Source: a virus. From it: a stretch of DNA of 31,678 bases. Below, piece by piece: positions 467 through 11,085 of the stretch (the first letter of the stretch is position 1; the number at the start of each line of letters is the position of its first letter). The position numbers and the translations under genes were made by a program. A model generated the notes under the pieces. The model saw only the letters and a program-made list of their open reading frames with translations. It made no database searches and was not told the DNA's origin. The stretch spans positions 1-31,678 of IMG/VR virus record IMGVR_UViG_3300047564_000521. One strand, given 5' to 3'.

Positions 467-841
467 TTATCGCAATTCACGCAACTTATAAACGGTGCTA
501 TTAATCAGGTTGAGGATAGTATCAACCTCGTTCTGTATCTCGCTATCATCAGGCAGATTGCTTCTATTCTCCCTTACATAGTCCTGTAATAGTTCTAAGT
601 ATGGCAAAGGAGCAAACTGGCTCAGTTCAACGGTCGTTGGGTATCCGTTGATAATCTCATAAGACCCCTGTAATGATTCAGTAAGGGTATCTACTAGGTC
701 GGGAATAGCATCATAATACTTCTGCAAGGCTTTGTGCTTGGCATAAGAGCCTTCCCCTGTTACTTGAAAGTGCATGATATGTGTGCATACTGCTGAGTGT
801 AATAGTGTGCAGATAAATTCCGCTACCTTAGTCATATTCAT
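467..841 (-). CDS. Small all-helical phage protein, possibly ferritin-like (DUF5856 type)
   Basis: This 124-residue protein looks entirely helical. Near residues 15-45 it has histidines in HSAVCTHIMHF followed by an AKHKALQKYYDAIPDLVD segment. That pattern resembles, from memory, a family of small phage proteins of unknown function with a ferritin- or Dps-like helix pair (DUF5856). The start ATG overlaps the stop of queE as TAATG and has a good ribosome binding site (TAGGAG), so it is translationally coupled to the modification operon. I cannot assign a reaction. A metal-binding or scaffold role is possible but is only inference. Confidence 0.6.
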   Translation of the reverse strand: MNMTKVAEFICTLLHSAVCTHIMHFQVTGEGSYAKHKALQKYYDAIPDLVDTLTESLQGSYEIINGYPTTVELSQFAPLPYLELLQDYVRENRSNLPDDSEIQNEVDTILNLINSTVYKLRELR

Positions 842-1509
842 TATCGGACTCCTATAAATTTGTGCGTTTGGATAGACACCTTCATATTATGCTCTGTTGC
901 TTTATTCACGCAAAGGGTTGTTGCTGACTTGTTTTGGGATAAGGGTTGCATCCATACGGGGGTTTCACGTGAAACATAAGGCATTACTCGTTCCGCTAAT
1001 TTCTCAAAATCGACCTCTTTGCCAATAGGAAATTTAATCTCGTTAGCACGGGCATAAGACTCTTTCATTACATCTAACCCGCCTGCCATGTCTAGTTTAG
1101 GGCTAACAGTAACGAATGTATCGGGGTGGCATCGGATAGGGAATGTGCCTGAGGTCTCAATTTGGACTGTCCTTCCGCTTTTGAGAATCTCAGCAGTCAA
1201 GTCGTTAAGGTCATACATACAAGGCTCTCCCCCTGTGATAACGATATGCCTTGCCTTTAATTGAGAAAATACTTCCATTAGTTCGGCTACTGTCATATGA
1301 GAATAAGTATCTTCGTCCTCATACTTCATAAGCATTCCTGTAATCATAATGACTTTTTCAGGCTTGGTTTCCCAAGTATGCTTGGTATCGCACCAATGAC
1401 ACCCAACAGGGCATCCTTGAAGTCTTACGAATATAGCGGGAGTGCCTGTAAAGGTCGCCTCGCCTTGCATGGTTTCAAATATTTCATTTACGGGCAATGT
1501 ATTGTTCAT
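841..1509 (-). CDS. queE: 7-carboxy-7-deazaguanine synthase (radical SAM)
   Basis: QueE converts 6-carboxytetrahydropterin to 7-carboxy-7-deazaguanine, the ring-contracting step of preQ0 synthesis. The 222-residue product closely follows the enterobacterial enzyme: NEIFETMQGE near the N-terminus, the radical SAM cluster C33-x3-C37-x2-C40 within RLQGCPVGCHWCDTKHTW, HIVITGGEPC at 88-97, IETSGT, TVSPKL, and QTHKFIGVR at the C-terminus. I chose the ATG at 1509 because it has an AGGAAG ribosome binding site and matches the family N-terminus. A longer frame reaching 1569 would only add residues foreign to the family. The gene overlaps the upstream phosphoribosyltransferase by 26 bases and the next gene by TAATG. 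No catalytic residue appears to be missing. Confidence 0.95.
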   Translation of the reverse strand: MNNTLPVNEIFETMQGEATFTGTPAIFVRLQGCPVGCHWCDTKHTWETKPEKVIMITGMLMKYEDEDTYSHMTVAELMEVFSQLKARHIVITGGEPCMYDLNDLTAEILKSGRTVQIETSGTFPIRCHPDTFVTVSPKLDMAGGLDVMKESYARANEIKFPIGKEVDFEKLAERVMPYVSRETPVWMQPLSQNKSATTLCVNKATEHNMKVSIQTHKFIGVR

Positions 1510-1870
1510 AATCTTCCTGTGCTTTATCTTTGCTTTCCCAAGGAAACACAATCCAATCGTCTGTGTCATCCTCTATGATTCCAAAAACACCCCGTTCTTT
1601 GCATCTAGTCTTTTTAAATATGCAATGAACAGGTCCATTGTTATACCTAATGCGGGCATCTAGTATGGTTCGCCCGCTATCCGCTATGTCGTCAATAAAC
1701 ACCGATTTAACAGATGCTCTAGTGGTAAGCGGAAGCCCAAACTTATGGCTAAGAGCCACAGCATAAACAAGCCCGCCACGAGGGAGAGGAAACAACTCAT
1801 GAGCAATAGGTTTAGGAGTTTTAGCCACTGCCTCATCAAACTCCTCCCATGTAAAGTATCTTAGGTTCAT
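1484..1870 (-). CDS. Gpt-like (xanthine-)guanine phosphoribosyltransferase
   Basis: This 128-residue type I phosphoribosyltransferase has the PRPP-binding loop VFIDDIADSGRT at 58-69, a PRGGL segment at 30-34 and a C-terminal DDWIVFPWE at 104-112. The last element matches the WIEQPW region of E. coli Gpt, which as I recall contacts the purine base. It is shorter than Gpt (152 residues), having lost sequence mainly in the middle. It lies between queD and queE and starts with an ATGA overlap. The known preQ0 route and DpdA base exchange need no phosphoribosyl transfer. The most attractive role is salvage of the guanine that DpdA expels, giving GMP and then GTP for FolE. Acting on a deazapurine base is an alternative. 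Family is confident, substrate is inferred. Confidence 0.85.
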   Translation of the reverse strand: MNLRYFTWEEFDEAVAKTPKPIAHELFPLPRGGLVYAVALSHKFGLPLTTRASVKSVFIDDIADSGRTILDARIRYNNGPVHCIFKKTRCKERGVFGIIEDDTDDWIVFPWESKDKAQEDYEQYIARK

Positions 1871-2307
1871 ACGGAATAAATTGCTGAGTTAGCCCCATGC
1901 TCAGATACTTCAACGCTAACCAAACGACATCGAGGAGCATAACCATTGTCTTTAAGCCATAAGTCGGTTACTTCATAGACATATTCAGCAAATTTCTCGC
2001 ACCCGCCATCAGGAATAACGACTAAGCGTAATACACCTAATTGCTCGCCTTGTTTAAAGTAATCAAGGTGTGGGTCGTTTTCAGCAATAACAGTAGTATG
2101 GTCAAAAGTGTCTTCCAATATGCCTTTGAGGGACTTTAGGCTTCCAAAATCGACTACCCAGTTGCGATAGTCTAATTCTTCGGTTTCAAAGACTAATTTA
2201 AACGATAAGGCATAGCCATGAATTAACTTGCAATGGCTTTCCGCTTTCCATTGTCTAAACGCACAAGAAAAGCCTGTTTCAAATTTTTTGGTAGATTGGT
2301 ATTTCAT
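1867..2307 (-). CDS. queD: 6-carboxy-5,6,7,8-tetrahydropterin synthase
   Basis: QueD converts dihydroneopterin triphosphate to 6-carboxytetrahydropterin. The 146-residue protein has the catalytic CxxxHG motif (C26-KLI-H30-G), the WVVDFGSLK segment at 50-58, the FDHTTV catalytic Asp-His at 69-70 and a C-terminal Glu in SVEVSEHG. It is longer than E. coli QueD (about 121 residues). Two of the usual three zinc histidines are changed: the AAH position reads SCA (Cys15), and the HGH motif reads HGY. The family assignment therefore rests on fold motifs and context rather than on an intact metal site. ATGA overlaps couple it to folE upstream and the phosphoribosyltransferase downstream. Confidence 0.88.
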   Translation of the reverse strand: MKYQSTKKFETGFSCAFRQWKAESHCKLIHGYALSFKLVFETEELDYRNWVVDFGSLKSLKGILEDTFDHTTVIAENDPHLDYFKQGEQLGVLRLVVIPDGGCEKFAEYVYEVTDLWLKDNGYAPRCRLVSVEVSEHGANSAIYSV

Positions 2308-2963
2308 TTGATTAGCCTAAAAAATTCAGCACGGGTTTCAGCCTCATCTCTAAACGCTCCCCGCATAACGCTTGTATTCATCTTGGTTTCGGACTCTTTA
2401 ACTCCCCGCCATGTCATACATTGGTGCGTTGCCTCAATTACGACTGCCAAGCCTTTAGGCTTAATCAATTCCTCAATAATGTCGGCTAGTTGGACTGTTG
2501 CTTCTTCTTGAATCTGTGGTCTAGCCAAAACCCAATTCGCAAGACGGACAAACTTGCTAATACCAATAACCCTGTCACTAGGCAAAATGCCAATCCAGCA
2601 ACGACCTGTAATAGGAACCATGTGATGCGAACAAGCAGAACGCACCGTAATAGGACCCAATGTATAAACTTGGTCAAGACTCTTAGCGTTGGGGAAATCG
2701 GTAATCTTGGGTTGTGCATCATATCTCCCTGCAAAGACCTCTTTGAGGTACATTTTTGCGATTCGTTTAGCAGTTTCTTGCGTGTTGTGGTCATTTTCTG
2801 TGTCAATGACAAGGGCTTTGAGTAAGGCTTTGACCTTCTCCTCAACCTCTGCCTGCAAGTGCTCGATTTCGGTTGGTTGCAAGTACTTCGATATATTATC
2901 GTTGGCATAAAAAGAGCCTCCATCTTGTCGAATTCGACTAATAATTGATTCAGACATACTCAT
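2304..2963 (-). CDS. folE: GTP cyclohydrolase I
   Basis: FolE opens GTP to 7,8-dihydroneopterin triphosphate, the first step towards preQ0. With the start chosen here the product has 219 residues. It carries the zinc ligands in SACSHHMVP (C111, H113/H114) and in ATHQCMTWRG (C182), plus TAKRIAKMY and the PITGRCWIGILPSDRVIG strand. The ATG at 2963 has a GAGGTG ribosome binding site at the right distance. An ATG at 2975 and one at 2957 also exist in frame. The gene overlaps queC by 14 bases upstream and queD by ATGA downstream. A phage copy raises flux into deazapurine synthesis independently of the host enzyme. Confidence 0.95.
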   Translation of the reverse strand: MSMSESIISRIRQDGGSFYANDNISKYLQPTEIEHLQAEVEEKVKALLKALVIDTENDHNTQETAKRIAKMYLKEVFAGRYDAQPKITDFPNAKSLDQVYTLGPITVRSACSHHMVPITGRCWIGILPSDRVIGISKFVRLANWVLARPQIQEEATVQLADIIEELIKPKGLAVVIEATHQCMTWRGVKESETKMNTSVMRGAFRDEAETRAEFFRLIK

Positions 2964-3705
2964 GACGCACCTCATTGTAGTTAGGGGTTTCAGGCAAAGA
3001 CATTAAGCCTTCTTTATAAGCACGAACAATTAATGGGTCAGGAGTATTAGCCTCTAAGAATCCCTGAGCCCTTAAAACTGTCGCATGGTCTTTACCGACA
3101 GGCGGGTATTGCCCGTCATAAGCAGTATGGCTATACGCTAGTGCCTCCATACAGCCATCTAATGTCTTGGCAAGCCCGATGCTTTGTGCTTTAGATAAGT
3201 CCATCAATGGGGTATGGATACGGAAATGGTCTATGCCAAGAGCCTCATTGATAGTGCGTTGTTGCCAATCAATAAAACGCTGACGGCAATCAGGATAGTT
3301 AGCATTGTCTTGCTGACATACTCCCGTTACTAGGTCATAGCAGTCTTCTGCTAGAGCATAATTTGCCGCTAATGTCAAAAAGAAAGCATTACGCATAGGG
3401 ACAAAAGTCAATTCGACTCTATTGCCTATGATGTTTTCCATCTGCTCGTAATTATCGTATTGCTCTAGTTTTTGGCTTCTATCAAGCAATGGGCTACGGC
3501 TTTTTAGGACATGAGGGACATGGACTAATTGCCATGACTTGACCCCTGCCATATCAGCAACAGTAGTTGCCGCTTCTAGTTCCCTGTCGTGGGTCTGCCC
3601 GTAATCAAATGTAATAGCATGAACTTCATCGAAGTTCTTTTTTGCCCAAAATAGGCAAGTAGTTGAATCCTGTCCGCCCGACAGGACTACCATGACTTTG
3701 CTCAT
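2950..3705 (-). CDS. queC: 7-cyano-7-deazaguanine (preQ0) synthase, variant lacking the zinc cysteines
   Basis: QueC uses ATP and ammonia to turn 7-carboxy-7-deazaguanine into preQ0. The 251-residue protein has the PP-loop SGGQDSTT at 9-16, the FDYGQTHDRE segment at 33-42 and VPMRNAFFLTLAANYA near 102-117, all typical. The unusual part is residues 189-216. E. coli QueC has four zinc-binding cysteines there (a Cys, then CGxCxxC). This protein instead reads SHTAYDGQYPPVGKDHATVL and then RAQGF, with no cysteine. His193 and His207 lie near the lost positions. The surrounding family pattern is kept, so this looks like a variant subfamily rather than a broken gene. The start overlaps the GNAT gene by ATGA. 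Confidence 0.93.
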   Translation of the reverse strand: MSKVMVVLSGGQDSTTCLFWAKKNFDEVHAITFDYGQTHDRELEAATTVADMAGVKSWQLVHVPHVLKSRSPLLDRSQKLEQYDNYEQMENIIGNRVELTFVPMRNAFFLTLAANYALAEDCYDLVTGVCQQDNANYPDCRQRFIDWQQRTINEALGIDHFRIHTPLMDLSKAQSIGLAKTLDGCMEALAYSHTAYDGQYPPVGKDHATVLRAQGFLEANTPDPLIVRAYKEGLMSLPETPNYNEVRHEYV

Positions 3706-4148
3706 GATTCTTCCTTCACAGTTTTATTGGTTATCTGCCACAAGTTGAGAGGTCGTTTCTTACCTTGCTCAACTCCCATTTTCTCACCAATTCGAGAATA
3801 AAATCCATTACTTTTATTATCAATTGGACATTTAAGATGTATTTTTTCGCATTTAGTCAATACTGCCTCGATTAATTGCTTGCCACCGCCCTTGCCTCTT
3901 ATGGCAGGGTGAGTTCCGACTTCATAAATAACCCCAATGCCATCTTTTTTGCGAATGTTGTAATTACAAAAGCCCATGACTAAATTACCTGACATAAGCA
4001 GAAGTAAATTACCTTTACTGGCTTGCTCCCGCAAAACGATAGGCATTACATAGCCAATCTCTTTAGTCATCAATTTGGTTATCTTGATGATTTGATTCAG
4101 TTGGTCTTCAAAAGCCAACGAATTAGGATTGGCTAGTATGACGTTCAT
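3702..4148 (-). CDS. GNAT-family N-acetyltransferase in the deazaguanine operon
   Basis: This 148-residue protein has the GNAT acetyl-CoA motif A as [20 protein letters not shown] (about 78-96, with R84-GKGGGK) and a C-terminal [10 protein letters not shown] resembling motif B. It lies between queF and queC with ATGA overlaps on both sides, so it is made together with the preQ1 enzymes. No acetyltransferase belongs to the known preQ0/preQ1 pathway. Candidate substrates are the free aminomethyl group of preQ1 (as base or in DNA), a host protein such as a restriction factor, or an unrelated small amine. The substrate cannot be read from the sequence. The location makes the first option worth testing. 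Confidence 0.8.
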
Positions 4149-4549
4149 TTTTTAATGAAAGCAGTTGGGTTAATGCTAATACCGCCTCTAGGCATAAAGT
4201 CGCCACGCACTTTAATCCATTTTGGTTGCATTAAGTCAAATAAGTCCTTAGCAATAGTATTGATGCAGTCTTCATGGAATGAACCATGCTGACGGAAACC
4301 AAATAGATATAGTTTTAACGCTTTAGATTCCACTAAATGCGTATCAGGCTCATATACGATTGTGATGTTTGCAAAGTCAGGCTGACCAGTCTTAGGGCAA
4401 ATGTGAGTAAATTCAGGGCACTCAATTTCTACTTCATAAGACTGATTAGGAAATTGATTCTCAAACTTTTCCAAGATTGCAGGGTTATAGCCTGCGGAAT
4501 AGTCGGTAGTATTAGCACCTAGTAGGGTTAGCGTTTTGGTATCGCTCAT
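4145..4549 (-). CDS. queF: NADPH-dependent preQ0 reductase (nitrile reductase)
   Basis: QueF reduces the nitrile of preQ0 to the primary amine of preQ1. The 134-residue protein is of the single-domain (Bacillus YkvM-like) type. The catalytic Cys51 lies in [12 protein letters not shown] together with Asp58. The QueF signature [17 protein letters not shown] runs from 73 to 89, FHED follows at 92-95, and [11 protein letters not shown] at 118-128. All key residues of a genuine reductase are kept, which argues against the amidino-transferring QueF-like branch that makes archaeosine. Both ends overlap neighbours by ATGA. Its presence predicts that the final base is preQ1 or something derived from it, rather than preQ0. 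Confidence 0.95.
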
Positions 4550-5430
4550 TTAATTACCTTTCTTTCTTTCATTAGTTGTAAAGAGTCATACACATTTTGC
4601 AGTTGAGATTCATTCCCAAATGCTAAATACACTTTCGTGCCAAGATTATTTTCAATATCGATGGCTCGTCTTAGATGATTGGTCACTGTTATAAATGATG
4701 CTAAACCTTTTGGATTGGAATTAGGCGGTTGAGCACCCCCTACCCAAGCATCTTGATTTTGCAACATCAAGATTTCTTTCATCGTAAATCCTGATTTTAA
4801 TAAGTAATTTATAGCCTTTTCAGGAGGTCGCCTTGCACAATCAACTCTGTTAATAGTTTTTAACTGCCCTGCACCTACATAGTATTGCAAGTTACCGAAT
4901 CGTTGTGCTGAGTAGGCTGATGATGAATCTACTGAATATGGTTTGTAATGCTTAATGAATGGGATATTTACAAAGCCTAGCCAATGTGCGTGTCTGCCTT
5001 TATTGACTTCACAGAACCATTTAACGTAGTTTTTGTTTTCCCCGCCAATAGCAATTCCCCCGAACATAATGTAGTCGGTATAGGAATAGAATTCTTCAAG
5101 TCGCTCGATTGTGTCGCCTCTTGTAAATACTGGCATGACATCTGTGTATCCAGCATCCAACATTCTGAGGTAATTCGTATAAGTTTGTTCAGGGTTTCCG
5201 TATACATCTAACTGCACCGCTTTATATTCCCAATGACTAGGAATGGTTTTGAGGAACTTGCAATAGTCCTCCATGCTGATATGTTTGCCTGTATTCCATG
5301 CGGTAAATGCCCCCGAATCCACAATTAAGCGGAATGTCGAGGGGTCTTTATCCATCAGAAAGCGATAGACCTGCTGACTGAAATAAGGAAAAGCAACAAG
5401 GATATTTAATTTAACTGACTTCGACATCAT
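4546..5430 (-). CDS. dpdA: DpdA-like DNA guanine transglycosylase
   Basis: This protein of about 294 residues belongs to the TGT-like DpdA group, which exchanges guanine in DNA for a 7-deazaguanine base. The motif DSGAFTAW (Asp at about 38) corresponds to DSGGFQ of tRNA-guanine transglycosylase. [15 protein letters not shown] near 122-136 matches the TGT AIGGLAVGE substrate-binding loop. [10 protein letters not shown] near 165-174 offers the likely nucleophilic Asp. It is much shorter than tRNA TGT (about 375 residues) and lacks the cysteine-rich zinc site, as phage DpdA proteins do. The start is uncertain: in-frame ATGs lie at 5445, 5430 and 5427, none with a clear ribosome binding site. All overlap the end of the ParB-like gene, so translation is probably coupled. 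Confidence 0.9.
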
Positions 5431-5962
5431 GCAAGCCAAGGTCATCAATCAAGTTAGTAATCTTTTCACGGAGCATGGCTTTTTCTTCTCCGCTACAACT
5501 GATTACAATTTTTTCCTTTGCTTGCGTATCAACTGCATCAATTCCATCCATGCGGTCAATGTCGGACTGCCATCCGTTAAATAGTAAGTTTAGTTCCTCA
5601 GGACTAAAACCCGTAGCAATCTGCTCAATATCAGTCATACCCTCTAGTTCTAGTTTTAGGAGTTCTTCGTCCCATCCTGAGTTAAGAGCAATCTTGTTGT
5701 CGGCAATGATATAAGCCTTGCGTTGGCTTTCGGATAGGTGGGTAAGCCTAATACAAGGCACTTCGCCCATATCCAAAGCACGGGCGGCTAGAACCCGTCC
5801 ATGCCCCGCAATAATGGTTGAGTTCTCATCTACCAATACAGGGTTGTTGAATCCGAACTCACGAATAGAGGCGGCAATTTGTGCTACTTGCGATTCGCTA
5901 TGAGTGCGAGCATTATTGGCATACGGAATTAACTTTTCGGTGGCGACCTTTTCAATTTTCAT
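5411..5962 (-). CDS. ParB/Srx-fold protein, possible DpdA partner
   Basis: This 183-residue protein has an N-terminal ParB/sulfiredoxin-type domain (about 1-95). It includes KLIPYANNARTHSESQVAQI, IREFGFNNPVLVDE and the phosphate-binding-like signature IIAGHGRVLAA, then a helical C-terminus. The family is often fused to a DNA methylase in phages, but here the methylase half is absent and dpdA follows, overlapping by about 20 bases. As I recall, DpdB of the bacterial dpd system has a ParB/Srx domain and works with DpdA. That makes a partner or nucleotide-hydrolysing accessory role a reasonable inference. The ATG at 5962 has an AAAGG ribosome binding site and overlaps the preceding gene by 11 bases. 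Confidence 0.85.
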   Translation of the reverse strand: MKIEKVATEKLIPYANNARTHSESQVAQIAASIREFGFNNPVLVDENSTIIAGHGRVLAARALDMGEVPCIRLTHLSESQRKAYIIADNKIALNSGWDEELLKLELEGMTDIEQIATGFSPEELNLLFNGWQSDIDRMDGIDAVDTQAKEKIVISCSGEEKAMLREKITNLIDDLGLHDVEVS

Positions 5963-7271: not shown

Positions 7272-7439
7272 TTACTTGTTTAAATTGATAAAAAGACATT
7301 CGTTCTGAATTACACGACCTTTAGAGTCGATGTAATACTCACCACAACCCGCCATCCATTCCAATGCTAGGACTGCAATCCCTGCACCAAAAATAATGGC
7401 GATTACTACATTTACAAACCAAGATAAAAGTTTCTTCAT
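7272..7439 (-). CDS. Small membrane protein
   Basis: This 55-residue protein starts MKKLLSWFVNVVIAIIFGAG and has one hydrophobic segment (about 5-27), then a polar tail with two cysteines. The ATG at 7439 has an AAGGAG ribosome binding site at good spacing and follows a well-formed promoter by about 35 bases; a longer frame upstream has no such support. It precedes the DUF932 gene in the same transcript. No known function. Confidence 0.65.
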   Translation of the reverse strand: MKKLLSWFVNVVIAIIFGAGIAVLALEWMAGCGEYYIDSKGRVIQNECLFINLNK

Positions 7440-7455
7440 ACTTGCTCCTTTTCGT

Positions 7456-7485
7456 GTATGGCGGGATGCCATACAAGTATTATAG
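7456..7485 (-). promoter_or_regulatory. Promoter with palindromic operator
   Basis: On the minus strand a TATAAT box (7484-7479) sits in the string CTATAATACTT. It is followed by a perfect 7-bp inverted repeat GTATGGC-5-GCCATAC (7474-7456), which covers the expected start of transcription, and then ACGAAAAGGAG, the ribosome binding site. No good -35 box is seen. The same arrangement recurs upstream of 9880, suggesting a shared regulator. Confidence 0.6.
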
Positions 7486-7648: not shown

Positions 7649-7676
7649 AAAAAGAACCCCGCCTCGAGGACGGGGT
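7649..7676 (-). terminator. Rho-independent terminator of the recombination operon
   Basis: On the minus strand ACCCCG and CGGGGT pair around a 9-base loop containing the palindrome CCTCGAGG, followed by TCTTTTT. It lies downstream of the SSB and lipopeptide genes. It separates the recombination operon from the next promoter. Confidence 0.75.
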
Positions 7677-7699
7677 AAGCCTGCTGTGCTGAAAAGGGC

Positions 7700-7776
7700 G
7701 GGGGGTAGTCACGAAAAGGTCGCTCAGTGTGAAAAAGCGAGGAAGTTTTCGGTTATTCCTAGAACCACTACCCCCC
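7700..7776 (-). ncRNA. Candidate structured RNA
   Basis: This lies in a 343-base stretch without a protein gene (7440-7782). A perfect 10-bp GC-rich outer stem pairs GGGGGGTAGT (7700-7709) with ACTACCCCCC (7767-7776). Nested inside are CGAAAA (7712-7717) with TTTTCG (7746-7751), and TCGCT (7720-7724) with AGCGA (7736-7740). An alternative small hairpin GGTT/AACC sits at 7751-7766. All arms are stackable in one fold of about 77 bases. It starts seven bases after the lipopeptide stop codon and precedes the terminator, so the minus strand is the likelier transcript. It does not fit a tRNA. The strand and function are unknown. Confidence 0.4.
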
Positions 7777-7782
7777 TATTTG

Positions 7783-7914
7783 TTAGCGGATTCCGCACCC
7801 GCAAATCATTTTGCCATTCATACCCTGTTTGCATCCGTAAGGACTATACGGGGGACAAGCGGCAACTGCACCAAATGAAACTGTCAATAGCAATACGGCT
7901 AGTGCTTTTTTCAT
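7783..7914 (-). CDS. Small secreted or lipoprotein peptide, cysteine-rich
   Basis: This 43-residue frame starts with MKKALAVLLLTVSFGAVAAC, a clear signal peptide. VAAC fits a lipobox with Cys20 as the lipid-modified residue, or AVA-A fits ordinary cleavage. The mature part is about 24 residues, rich in Pro, Gly, Tyr and Cys (C20, C28, C38, C40). The ribosome binding site AAGGAGT overlaps the stop codon of ssb and lies five bases from the ATG, so it is coupled to ssb. It is the last protein of the recombination operon. A periplasmic or membrane-anchored early peptide could act in superinfection exclusion, but nothing in the sequence proves that. Confidence 0.7.
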   Translation of the reverse strand: MKKALAVLLLTVSFGAVAACPPYSPYGCKQGMNGKMICGCGIR

Positions 7915-7924
7915 ATCTTACTCC

Positions 7925-8335
7925 TTAAAACGGTATATCTTCGTCAATATCCGAAAGGTTGCCAGTAGGGGCAGTTTCGGGCTTTGTCAGGTCTTTTGGT
8001 TTGGCATCTGACTTACCACCTACCATCTGCATAGACTCACCAATAATTTTCGTAATGTATCGGTCTTGTCCATCTTTTTGGTATTTTTCAGTCCGCAATT
8101 TACCTTCAACATAAACCTGCGAACCCTTGTGTAGATATTGCCCTACGATTTCCGCTAACTTGCCAAAAAATGCCACATTGACCCATTCGGTAACTTCTTT
8201 CTGTTCCCCGTTTTTGTCTTTGTATTTTTCGGTAATAGCGATGCTGATATTTGCTACGGCTTTTCCATCAGGCATAAACCTCATTTCGGGGTCTTTGCCT
8301 AAATTGCCGATTCCGTGCCATTTATTTACTGCCAT
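7925..8335 (-). CDS. ssb: Single-stranded DNA-binding protein
   Basis: This 136-residue protein has a full OB fold of the bacterial SSB type: [17 protein letters not shown] at 4-20, [25 protein letters not shown], and [20 protein letters not shown] linker leads to the acidic tip DIDEDIPF, which in SSBs recruits partner proteins. It protects single strands during phage replication and supports the annealing protein and exonuclease encoded just upstream. The ribosome binding site AGGAGAG overlaps the end of the YqaJ gene. Length is shorter than host SSB (about 170 residues) through a shorter linker. Confidence 0.97.
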
Positions 8336-8337
8336 GA

Positions 8338-9003
8338 TTACTCTCCTAGTTTGATGATTAAGTCCTCTACTTCGGACAAAAACTGCTTTACTTCTACCTC
8401 CATATCCGCAATGAGTGATTCATCACGATTACAACGCATTACAAACAACTGATTACGCTTAGGCAGTCGTGGGTCAAATGAAATGAAATCGCACCATTGT
8501 CTATTCGTTACCCATAACTGACATTGAATTTGTTTGTAATACTCAGAGGGTACTTTATTTGCAAAGATGTAGTCAAGGTGCGTGGTCGTATTAGGGCATT
8601 TCACCTCTACCAATCCGTCATTCCCTACCAAGCGGTCAGGACTAACTCCGACCCACTTAATCGTAGGGTGCAACCAAAACCCCGTCTTATCTACCAAGAC
8701 ATCATTGCTTTCTTCGTAAGCCATACAAGCAAAGCGTTCTTGCTCAATGCCCCATTCCATCGCTGAATTGGTATATGACTCAGGACTAGCACCAGTCATG
8801 CGTTCAGCAACTAATCGCACTTTGTATTTGTAACGAGTAATAGCCTCGCCTGTTTTGCCTTTAGCCATAACATCAGCAACATTTGAGGCGGTTACATGAC
8901 CAAGACGGGCTTGTTTCCAAGCCTCAGAACCTTGCTCCAATAATCGTTCAGGGTATTGAATAGTTACGGCAGATAGGCGGTCTTCGGTAGTAAAAGTGGT
9001 CAT
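8338..9003 (-). CDS. YqaJ-family recombinase exonuclease
   Basis: This 221-residue protein is a YqaJ/lambda-Exo-type nuclease. It begins its domain with [18 protein letters not shown] (about 26-43), then has GVSPDRLVG and VEVKCP, supplying the Asp and ExK of the PD-(D/E)XK site, and finally [12 protein letters not shown]. It should degrade one strand of duplex DNA 5' to 3' so that the annealing protein can load. It overlaps the annealing-protein gene by ATGA, as expected for a two-component SynExo recombination pair, and is followed by ssb three bases on. Confidence 0.93.
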
Positions 9004-9545
9004 GCCGTTACCTCAGTCAATAAAGCCTTGCGTTTATCTTTAGCCTGCTCTAATACTTTAAGGGCATCTTGATTGCTTTTGCAAGCCTTAACCCCTGCTA
9101 CATAGTGTTGCTTTAGACCATCTAAGTCTTGTGAACTTTCAATGTTTTGCAAAATAGCACCAATATCAACAGGCTCAGGTTCGCCCTCAGATGGGAGGTC
9201 TTCACCCGCATACACATATAGCCCAATTCCAAAACAGGCAATGCACTTGGCAAGGCATCGCATCGTGGCATCAGAAATCTTGCGGGTGTCGGGATTCTTA
9301 ACTGCGTTATTGCGATTATCCATAACGGGCAACTGCATACGCATAGTTTTGCCAAAAGCAGTCACATTACAAAAGACCATGACTGTTTCGTTCCAAACTT
9401 TAGGCTCAGGGAATTCCCAAGTCGCAGTCGGGTCGTTTTGCAAAAGGGTATCTACCGCCCAAGTCCACGAAAGGTAGTTCAATTGACCTTTGCGTTCAAT
9501 ATGCTCATTGACATTAATAGTGCGGAGTTCGTTAAAAGTTTTCAT
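9000..9545 (-). CDS. Single-strand annealing protein, DUF1071 (Sak-type)
   Basis: This 181-residue protein matches DUF1071, a single-strand annealing family of the Rad52-like/Sak group. The signature runs HIERKGQLNYLSWTWAVD near the N-terminus, and further on ISDATMRCLAKCIACFGIG then LYVYAGEDLP. The C-terminal third looks like a charged helical tail. The ATG at 9545 has GAGGA as ribosome binding site; a longer frame to 9560 has none. With YqaJ and SSB it forms a complete homologous-recombination module. Confidence 0.88.
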   Translation of the reverse strand: MKTFNELRTINVNEHIERKGQLNYLSWTWAVDTLLQNDPTATWEFPEPKVWNETVMVFCNVTAFGKTMRMQLPVMDNRNNAVKNPDTRKISDATMRCLAKCIACFGIGLYVYAGEDLPSEGEPEPVDIGAILQNIESSQDLDGLKQHYVAGVKACKSNQDALKVLEQAKDKRKALLTEVTA

Positions 9546-9574
9546 GTTTACATTCCTCATTGATGATTAAAAAA

Positions 9575-9880
9575 TTAGCAAAGACCTTGGTTATATCTAT
9601 CAACCGCATGGTCTTCAGCCCAACGGTCTAACATTACTGCTACTGCATCAAAAATTGCTTGACCAAGAGCCAATCGGTCTCCCGTCTGTAAAGCCTCGGT
9701 TATCAATTTTTTATGCTCATCTCCGTACAAAGCATCGTTTGCAATCGCATCCATAAAGACATCAAATTTCTTAATGTCATACTCATCTGCCAATAAAGCC
9801 TCAACCTCTTGGTCAATGGCATCTTCTTCATCGTACTTATCTTGATATGGCTGTTCAAGCCATCTGTCATAGTTGCTCAT
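9575..9880 (-). CDS. Acidic early protein of unknown function
   Basis: This 101-residue acidic protein starts MSNYDRWLEQPYQDKYDEED and is predicted to be mainly helical, with no motif I recognise. The ATG at 9880 has an AAGGAA ribosome binding site and follows the palindrome-bearing promoter by about 40 bases. A longer frame to 9955 would run through that promoter and is not supported. It is the first gene of the recombination operon. The strongly negative charge is compatible with a DNA mimic or inhibitor, but that is only a possibility. Confidence 0.75.
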   Translation of the reverse strand: MSNYDRWLEQPYQDKYDEEDAIDQEVEALLADEYDIKKFDVFMDAIANDALYGDEHKKLITEALQTGDRLALGQAIFDAVAVMLDRWAEDHAVDRYNQGLC

Positions 9881-9900
9881 AAATTTTCCTTTTCGTAGGT

Positions 9901-9930
9901 ATGGCGGTTTGCCATGAGAAGTATTATAGT
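9901..9930 (-). promoter_or_regulatory. Promoter with palindromic operator, divergent region
   Basis: On the minus strand TATAAT (9928-9923) within TATAATACTT is followed by the inverted repeat ATGGC-5-GCCAT (9915-9901) and then ACGAAAAGGA. This is the same order as at 7456-7485. It serves the recombination operon. The 59-base gap to rusA is the divergence point of the two early transcripts, so a protein bound here could affect both. Confidence 0.6.
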
Positions 9931-10296: not shown

Positions 10297-10332
10297 TACT
10301 TCCTCTATCATTATCCTGACACGAAAAGGAGA
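10291..10332 (+). promoter_or_regulatory. Rightward promoter of the replication genes
   Basis: TATAATACTT (TATAAT at 10292-10297) overlaps the stop codon of rusA. Nineteen bases later ACGAAAAGGAG (from 10321) forms the ribosome binding site of the gene at 10336. Both strings are shared with the two leftward promoters, but here there is no palindrome between them. No clear -35 box. Confidence 0.5.
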
Positions 10333-10335
10333 ATC

Positions 10336-11085
10336 ATGCACTACTTTCAATTTGAAATAAAAGAATGGATTGCCAACACGGCACATCTAAGCCTAGAGGA
10401 AGAATCGGCTTACCTTAGGCTAATTTTTTACTACTACGATTCGGAAAAGCCAATCGCTAATGCGGACTTGGATAAGATTTTTCGCAAGTGCCGAATCCCG
10501 AAAGACTTGGGGTGCTACATCTTGGCTGAATATTTCCAATGCGAAGACGAGCAAAATTGGATTCATAAAAGATGTGATGAGGAAATAGCCCGATACCATG
10601 CCAAAAAAGAGCAGGCATCTAGGGCGGGGAAAGCATCTGCTGAACGGAGAAGCAACGGGCGTTCAACAGACGTTCAACCAATCATAAATCAAGAATCATT
10701 AATCATTAATCAGGAATCAATTAAAAAGACTAAGCCTAAAGGCTCTTATGAATCTAAAGATTGGATTTGTCCTGTAGATGTATGCCCTAATGTATTTGAA
10801 GATTTCCTAAGAGTAAGAAAAGCAAAACGCTCTCCATTGACTGTTACGGCATTAAATGGATTAGAACGAGAAGGTAAAAAGGCTGGGCTTAATCTGCAAG
10901 AAGTATTACAGATGTGTTGTGAAAGAGGGTGGATTGGATTTAAAGCAGAGTGGGCTAACGATAAAGCAAAGCAATTTAACTCACCTACAAGCAAAAATGT
11001 AAGTGCGGCAAGAGCAATTTTTGGCGATGAAAGGGGATTGGTAAATGAACGAGCAATCGACATTACCCCAAAGAAGATTACCTGA
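10336..11085 (+). CDS. DUF1376 replication-initiator-like protein
   Basis: This 249-residue protein has an N-terminal DUF1376 (YdaU-like) domain: FEIKEWIANTAHLSLEEESA near 6-25, AYLRLIFYYYDSEKPI and WIHKRCDEEIARYHAKKEQA, followed by a lysine- and asparagine-rich linker and a C-terminal domain. In many phages this gene precedes the lambda-P-like loader and is thought to act in replication initiation, like lambda O. The linker is encoded by short direct repeats (10660-10722) that look like an origin, as iterons lie inside lambda O. The ribosome binding site is strong (AAGGAG). The 3' end overlaps the next gene by 41 bases. Confidence 0.85.
   Translation: MHYFQFEIKEWIANTAHLSLEEESAYLRLIFYYYDSEKPIANADLDKIFRKCRIPKDLGCYILAEYFQCEDEQNWIHKRCDEEIARYHAKKEQASRAGKASAERRSNGRSTDVQPIINQESLIINQESIKKTKPKGSYESKDWICPVDVCPNVFEDFLRVRKAKRSPLTVTALNGLEREGKKAGLNLQEVLQMCCERGWIGFKAEWANDKAKQFNSPTSKNVSAARAIFGDERGLVNERAIDITPKKIT
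10660..10722 (+). repeat. Iteron-like repeats, candidate replication origin
   Basis: Two CGTTCAAC copies start at 10660 and 10671, exactly 11 bases apart, and an inverted TGAACG lies at 10641. Next come two 21-base AT-rich imperfect repeats (10681-10701 and 10702-10722; 17 of 21 positions agree), which encode IINQES twice. The string then runs into ATTAAAAAG. Repeats plus an AT-rich stretch inside the initiator gene fit a lambda-like origin. Confidence 0.45.

Follow-up and report, generated by a model that had tools for sequence, protein, structure and literature searches.

Genomic context of the structured RNA

The window (the whole stretch of 31,678 nucleotides analysed here, taken from an IMG/VR virus record) contains a leftward block of minus-strand genes arranged around a structured RNA at 7700–7776. 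Read 5' to 3' on the minus strand, the order is SSB, a 43-aa ORF, the RNA and a terminator; after a gene-free gap of about 200 nt come a TATAAT box, a short hairpin and an ORF at 7272–7439. The RNA stands at the 3' end of a recombination operon that comprises a first gene, a Sak single-strand annealing protein (9000–9560), a YqaJ exonuclease (8338–9003) and the SSB (7925–8335), all on the minus strand. The SSB, which was identified by Pfam and ends in DIDEDIPF*, is the conserved upstream neighbour of the RNA: an SSB-type tip, DDIPF*, was found at most 300 nt upstream in 42 of 49 family members (a script count in which one case, L178, looks spurious).

Between SSB and RNA, the sequence reads as a 43-aa, signal-peptide-like and Cys-rich ORF (7783–7914, minus), which is evidently a small gene inserted beside the conserved RNA. 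A close relative (L002/L045), whose neighbouring proteins are mostly 88–94% identical to those of the window, is without this gene and carries the element nearly unchanged, with 1 difference in 77 nt that turns a U-G pair of P3 into U-A. In distant phages with the gene order SSB, small ORFs and DUF932, the element occupies the equivalent site and keeps its architecture with a quite different sequence. Among isolates, Methylophilaceae phage P19250A matched the tape-measure and capsid-region proteins best, at 37–52% identity. Elsewhere in the window, a minus-strand cluster at 841–5448 encodes 7-deazaguanine functions (QueE-like radical SAM, QueD, FolE, QueC, a GTP-cyclohydrolase/QueF-type protein and a DpdA-like transglycosylase, phrog_887), which suggests that the phage DNA is modified.

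Fold and covariation

The RNA was assigned to the minus strand, with its 5' end at 7776 and the 3' end of P1 at 7700, because all neighbouring genes and the terminator lie on that strand; a plus-strand RNA was ruled out, as genes, terminator and the logic of the seed described below are all minus. Compared with 200 shuffles per strand, the 77 nt showed a z-score of -3.3, and an equally good fold arose in 1/200 shuffles for the plus strand and 0/200 for the minus strand. An earlier, sequence-only reading had proposed a candidate structured RNA here, closed by a perfect 10-bp outer stem. This stem is present as P1, formed by the 5' arm GGGGGGUAGU (7767–7776) and the 3' arm ACUACCCCCC (7700–7709). 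The inner stems are not simply nested as the reading had it: the comparison of 50 sequences supports P2, whose loop forms a pseudoknot, and P3. P2 is the hairpin GGUU-CUAGGAAU-AACC (7751–7766), and GGAA within its loop (7756–7759) pairs with the downstream strand UUCC (7741–7744); P3 is the hairpin UCGCUU...GAGCGA (7720–7740). Between P3 (or the pseudoknot) and the 3' arm of P1 lies a single-stranded segment, CCUUUUCGUG (7710–7719), which has no partner in the fold and is hereafter called the seed.

IMG/VR contigs yielded 71 copies of the family, representing 50 distinct sequences; wherever an entire record was scanned, it had a single copy. The fold consists of an 11-bp P1, the hairpin P2, whose loop engages in an H-type pseudoknot, and P3, which is optional. 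In an alignment of 20 elements (A4; 11 pairs in P1, 4 in P2, 4 in the pseudoknot and 4 in P3), 96.2% of the cells were paired, 19 of 23 pairs showed double changes, and covariation reached 0.579 compared with 0.206 in shuffled and at most 0.152 in slid controls; P3 had 95.7% of its cells paired and double changes in 4/4 pairs, and the seed core CCUUUUCGU was invariant. A covariance model restricted to the nested pairs (R1), which scored the window's element at 66.5 bits (E 1.6e-10), was used to find further members. With all 50 distinct sequences aligned to R1 (A5), 95.2% of the pair cells were standard, double changes occurred in 17/18 pairs, and covariation was 0.764 versus 0.226 shuffled and at most 0.164 slid. 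P1 had 95.6% of its cells paired in A5 with double changes in 8/9 pairs, and P2 was 94% paired with double changes in 4/4.

The pseudoknot was absent from R1, so its count in the 50 sequences is unbiased by the fit: 94.4% of its cells were paired, with 40 double-change cells against 9.3 in shuffles and a covariation of 0.584 against 0.224. Other versions of the loop strand include AGCA, UGUA, GAUG, UACA and GAUA, each with its downstream complement. A GAAAA/UUUUC helix in the single-sequence minimum free energy fold was discarded, being without support in the 50-sequence comparison and burying the conserved single-stranded segment. A fold better than that of shuffled sequences and very many compensatory changes among homologues, the check that the sequence-only reading had named, bear out its candidate: the folded RNA is real and represents a previously unrecorded family in freshwater phages.

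Pattern matches in L144, L151, L170, L171, L173, L176 and L184 were unconfirmed by the covariance model and were set aside. A DNA search of phage and plasmid collections with the window's element returned terminator-like matches or nothing, an 18-mer of the element had 2 matches in bacterial genomes, no more than chance gives, and a search of bacterial genomes with R1 did not find the RNA. Among the isolated phages searched, including the nearest isolate P19250A and three DUF932-bearing phages, none was found to carry it. In one clade (L084, L124, L132 and L056), a small hairpin of the GGGG...CCCC type followed by CNCC and TCTA/CCTA lies 5' of P1, and this upstream sequence may offer an alternative pairing with the P1 5' arm.

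Flanks, possible processing and termination

The flanks of P1 are conserved without pairing: in the 50 sequences, T at -3 was found in 49, a pyrimidine at -1 in 48, a purine at +1 in 50 and CC at +2 and +3 in 48. The resulting RCC immediately 3' of P1 (48/50), which is GCC at 7697–7699 (minus) in the window, is a candidate RNase P recognition element. The window's own flank departs from the family pattern, with A at -1 and G as the purine, beside the inserted 43-aa gene. RNase P substrates carry the signature Y(-1)-G1...C72-R73-C74-C75, in which R-C-C pairs with GGU of the RNase P RNA, and the phage C4 RNA is a known substrate (PMC11143913) that is cut at the 5' end of P1 to ~77 nt (PMC5320573). 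Given the match of the P1 flanks to this signature and the precedent of C4, it is a reasonable inference that RNase P cuts the 5' end of the RNA out of the SSB operon mRNA.

Downstream of the RNA, an intrinsic terminator lies at 7676–7656 (minus), and clear terminators stood directly downstream in 16/50 copies, as opposed to 7/426 random stretches. Since this terminator is separate from the RNA, the possibility that the element is itself a plain terminator was ruled out.

Seed and predicted targets in the window

The seed is complementary to the Shine-Dalgarno (SD) leader (C/T)ACGAAAAGG of three window genes, exactly apart from one G-U in one case, and these leaders include the head of the RNA's own operon. 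ACGAAAAGG occurs four times in the window: three copies stand directly before start codons, at 7456–7447 (minus), 9897–9888 (minus) and 10320–10329 (plus), and the remaining one is antisense, within the RNA; CGAAAAGG was observed 6 times where 0.96 were expected. The first predicted target, the leader CACGAAAAGG at 7447–7456, belongs to the small membrane ORF at 7272–7439, with a TATAAT box (7479–7484) and a 5' hairpin upstream; the leader of this ORF reads ACACGAAAAGGAGC. The second, TACGAAAAGG at 9888–9897, precedes the ORF at 9575–9880, with which the RNA's own operon begins, and the third, CACGAAAAGG at 10320–10329 on the plus strand, precedes a replication-initiator-like gene (10336–11085; DUF1376, primosomal/O-like).

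Their duplexes with the seed, at -18.1, -13.6 and -15.3 kcal/mol, rank 1, 3 and 2 among the 34 gene starts of the window. For shuffled 16-nt seeds, the third-best energy had a minimum of -15.8 and a median of -12.0 compared with the observed -13.6, so that duplex energies alone are weak proof, as shuffled seeds sometimes reach the window's values. A short 5' hairpin (ATGGC...GCCAT) lies directly 5' of the pairing site in several target leaders, in the window at 7457–7475 and ~9900–9915 (both minus), and might make the mRNA more stable or stack on the duplex with the RNA.

Concerted change of seed and leaders

Seed and leaders change together among relatives. Most phages combine seed CCUUUUCGUG with leaders CACGAAAAGG, while relatives with seed CCUUUCGUG have targets CACGAAAGG, one phage (L059) with seed CCUUUUCGAG has TCGAAAAGG at four start sites, and L012/L013 combine seed CCUUUUCGUA with leader TACGAAAAGG. 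Counting the motif NCGA(2-6)GG at start sites, 169 of 246 occurrences matched the seed of their own phage, compared with a mean of 88 and a maximum of 132 when the RNAs were permuted among contigs (10,000 permutations); away from starts, only 6 of 151 matched. Phages with a 4A seed had 73 4A sites versus 8 3A sites, those with a 3A seed had 92 3A versus 6 4A, and the TCG-seed phage had 4 TCG versus 1 ACG. A search for more TCG-type seeds recovered only this known phage, its contig appearing again as L195. When every 9-mer of each RNA was compared with its own contig, the seed accounted for 415 of 474 complements at start sites and for 31 of 248 at other places in the contigs, a contrast whose P value is merely indicative because the 9-mers overlap.

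Own-seed sites head DUF932 genes (28), the first gene of the recombination operon (27) and the opposite-strand replication gene (16), as well as many non-homologous small ORFs, which often come first downstream of the RNA, at +160 to +320 nt. At these sites, GG mostly stands 5–10 nt from the start codon, and across the family the leader is kept while the gene behind it is swapped. Most DUF932 relatives without a detected RNA have different ribosome sites. On the DUF932 tree, at least 5 changes of the 3A/4A state were counted for the seed and 4 for the target; these phages are related and non-independent, and an independent-pairs test on this tree had too few pairs for significance. Some loci were fetched with a pattern that contained the seed, which biases the share of seed types and leaves the seed-target match unbiased.

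One exception (L155, RNA at 2823–2882) has a 3A seed and a 4A leader, possibly a recent seed mutation that the targets have yet to follow. In L079, L081, L087, L119 and L121, ribosome sites ACGAAAGG were present and the RNA was not found, so that it has either diverged or been lost there. Overall, base pairing between seed and leader is strongly supported by these comparisons.

Relation to known RNAs

In line with the sequence-only reading, the element matched no RNA family in Rfam: in the window and 12 relatives, no Rfam family reached its gathering threshold, and low-threshold scans of three members gave weak, unrelated matches only. The window's best match, anti-hemB (RF02837), reached 27.6 bits against a cut-off of 49.5, and the Betaproteobacteria toxic sRNA (RF02278) 17.7 bits against 50; both were rejected. 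The scores came mainly from the terminator hairpin, and L009 and L132 had no match of either type. A preQ1 or other riboswitch, such as one serving the phage's 7-deazaguanine genes, was likewise dismissed, with no Rfam riboswitch match and with the RNA placed 3' of SSB and before a terminator. The C4 model (RF01695) matched 0/7 records at E<=10 and none at gathering; the control genomes also had no match over the cut-off, which limits the weight of this negative.

Alphaproteobacterial 'cuckoo' anti-SD sRNAs expose an anti-SD motif and silence many mRNAs. They are chromosomal and have other structures, whereas the seed described here reaches beyond the SD and is phage-specific.

The nearest functional likeness is to C4 of phages P1 and P7, a phage-encoded RNA of ~77 nt, closed by P1, whose loops block translation by pairing with a ribosome-binding site (PMC5320573, PMC12197685, PMC11143913). 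Like C4, the present RNA has a segment complementary to ribosome-binding sites of phage genes, in this case at the 169 own-seed start sites. In place of the single pseudoknotted hairpin, optional P3 and single linear seed found here, C4 has three stem-loops and a pair of antisense loops, a' and b'. Its target is the ant (antirepressor) mRNA, as opposed to a small membrane ORF, the leader gene of a recombination operon and a replication gene, and unlike C4, the present RNA addresses many leaders that have one sequence in common. Among other small phage RNAs, sar (P22) and OOP (lambda) pair with phage mRNA, and sar stops initiation of ant translation (PMC12197685); each has one described target, in contrast to a short seed with several targets and another structure. 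VpdS (phage VP882) and PreS (lambda) are trans-acting phage sRNAs (PMC12197685); they are Hfq-dependent, PreS acting on the host dnaN mRNA and VpdS on host and phage mRNAs, and the sections of the review drawn on here describe for neither a leader sequence common to the targets and co-evolving with the RNA. The class of function is thus known from C4 and sar, while the structure and the multi-target, common-leader logic were not found in Rfam or in the sections of this review drawn on here.

Proposed mechanism and alternatives

The structure, the pseudoknot, the complementarity, its position at start sites and the concerted change come directly from the comparison of relatives. These make it highly likely that the element is an antisense RNA which the phage encodes and which acts in trans, masking the starts of early genes, and very probable that it is a phage-made regulator of the phage's own early genes. 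For transcription, RNase P processing, repression and timing, I infer the following course. Transcription of the recombination operon (Sak, YqaJ, SSB, RNA, terminator) would yield an mRNA with the RNA in its 3' part, and host RNase P probably cuts the 5' end of the RNA at P1. P1, P2 and the pseudoknot would then form a rigid scaffold that presents the 9–10-nt seed unpaired. The seed would pair with (C/T)ACGAAA(A)GG SD leaders of three genes, namely the own operon's first gene, the replication initiator and the gene next downstream of the RNA; many relatives add the leader of DUF932. Such pairing would mask the ribosome-binding site and lower translation as the operon product accumulates, making the circuit a feedback on, or shut-off of, early genes. 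The sign is taken as repression because the seed covers the SD, and the targets are taken as early because their functions are recombination and replication. Of the roles suggested by the sequence-only reading, that of a small regulatory RNA is now favoured, with an origin in the 3' UTR likely as well; the seed, the pseudoknot and the co-evolution had escaped it.

The pairing itself is supported, and the RNA might conceivably use it to activate or protect its targets, for instance if it kept a nuclease away or opened a leader fold that inhibits translation; several target leaders do have a hairpin directly 5' of the pairing site. This hairpin leaves the SD unhidden, and the seed covers the GG of the SD, a cover that blocks initiation in the known cases of P1 C4 and P22 sar, which makes activation unlikely. 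Action in cis only, in which the RNA would pair with the following gene's leader on its own transcript or serve as a 3' stability element of the SSB operon, would fit two features: the ORF that comes first downstream of the RNA is often a target, at +160 to +320 nt, and some family members have a terminator downstream. Other targets lie kilobases upstream or, as with the replication gene, on the opposite strand, in both cases out of reach in cis, so that cis action alone is insufficient, and a 3' stability element has no need for a co-evolving seed. I consider this reading very improbable.

The seed's CUCCUUU resembles the 3' tail of 16S rRNA. The main targets might then be host mRNAs or sRNAs, with the seed mimicking the 16S anti-SD tail and phage SDs matching it through the same consensus. 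The conserved match runs past the SD into CG(U/A)(G/A), the part that co-varies with the phage leaders, leaving little room for host targets as the main ones. The remaining rival takes ACGAAA(A)GG as a DNA operator of a phage regulator protein, with the copy in the RNA gene as one more operator and its changes tracking the specificity of the protein. All sites in one phage change together, as a changed DNA-binding protein would also cause, and operator-like palindromes exist at some early promoters. These palindromes lie elsewhere, in the -35 region, whereas the motif sits at the SD position with SD-like spacing to the start codon, and in the RNA the motif invariably appears as its reverse complement, in a single set position before the P1 3' arm and within a fold kept by covariation. 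A DNA operator is accordingly very unlikely, and the antisense RNA described above is preferred.

Known phage antisense RNAs mostly have one phage target, while the single structured RNA described here seems to reach a whole group of early genes by way of a ribosome-site leader common to them. The metagenomes record RNA and targets changing together, so that natural variants show how specificity is re-set, and the system offers a testable early-gene RNA circuit in freshwater phages as well as a seed-presenting pseudoknot scaffold. A more far-reaching idea, which is possible yet rather doubtful, is that the RNA is a master RNA repressor, with (C/T)ACGAAA(A)GG as a portable leader that serves as an RNA operator and outlasts exchanges of the gene it precedes, and with seed and operators diverging in concert into the 4A, 3A and TCG groups. 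If this were true, these groups could define immunity or exclusion groups among related phages, like those of protein repressors and DNA operators. As a separate observation, the palindrome ATTTGTTACAAAT, with variants, lies near the -35 of early promoters upstream of target leaders in L012 (1775), L009 (4375) and L058 (4980), and is perhaps the site of a protein repressor.
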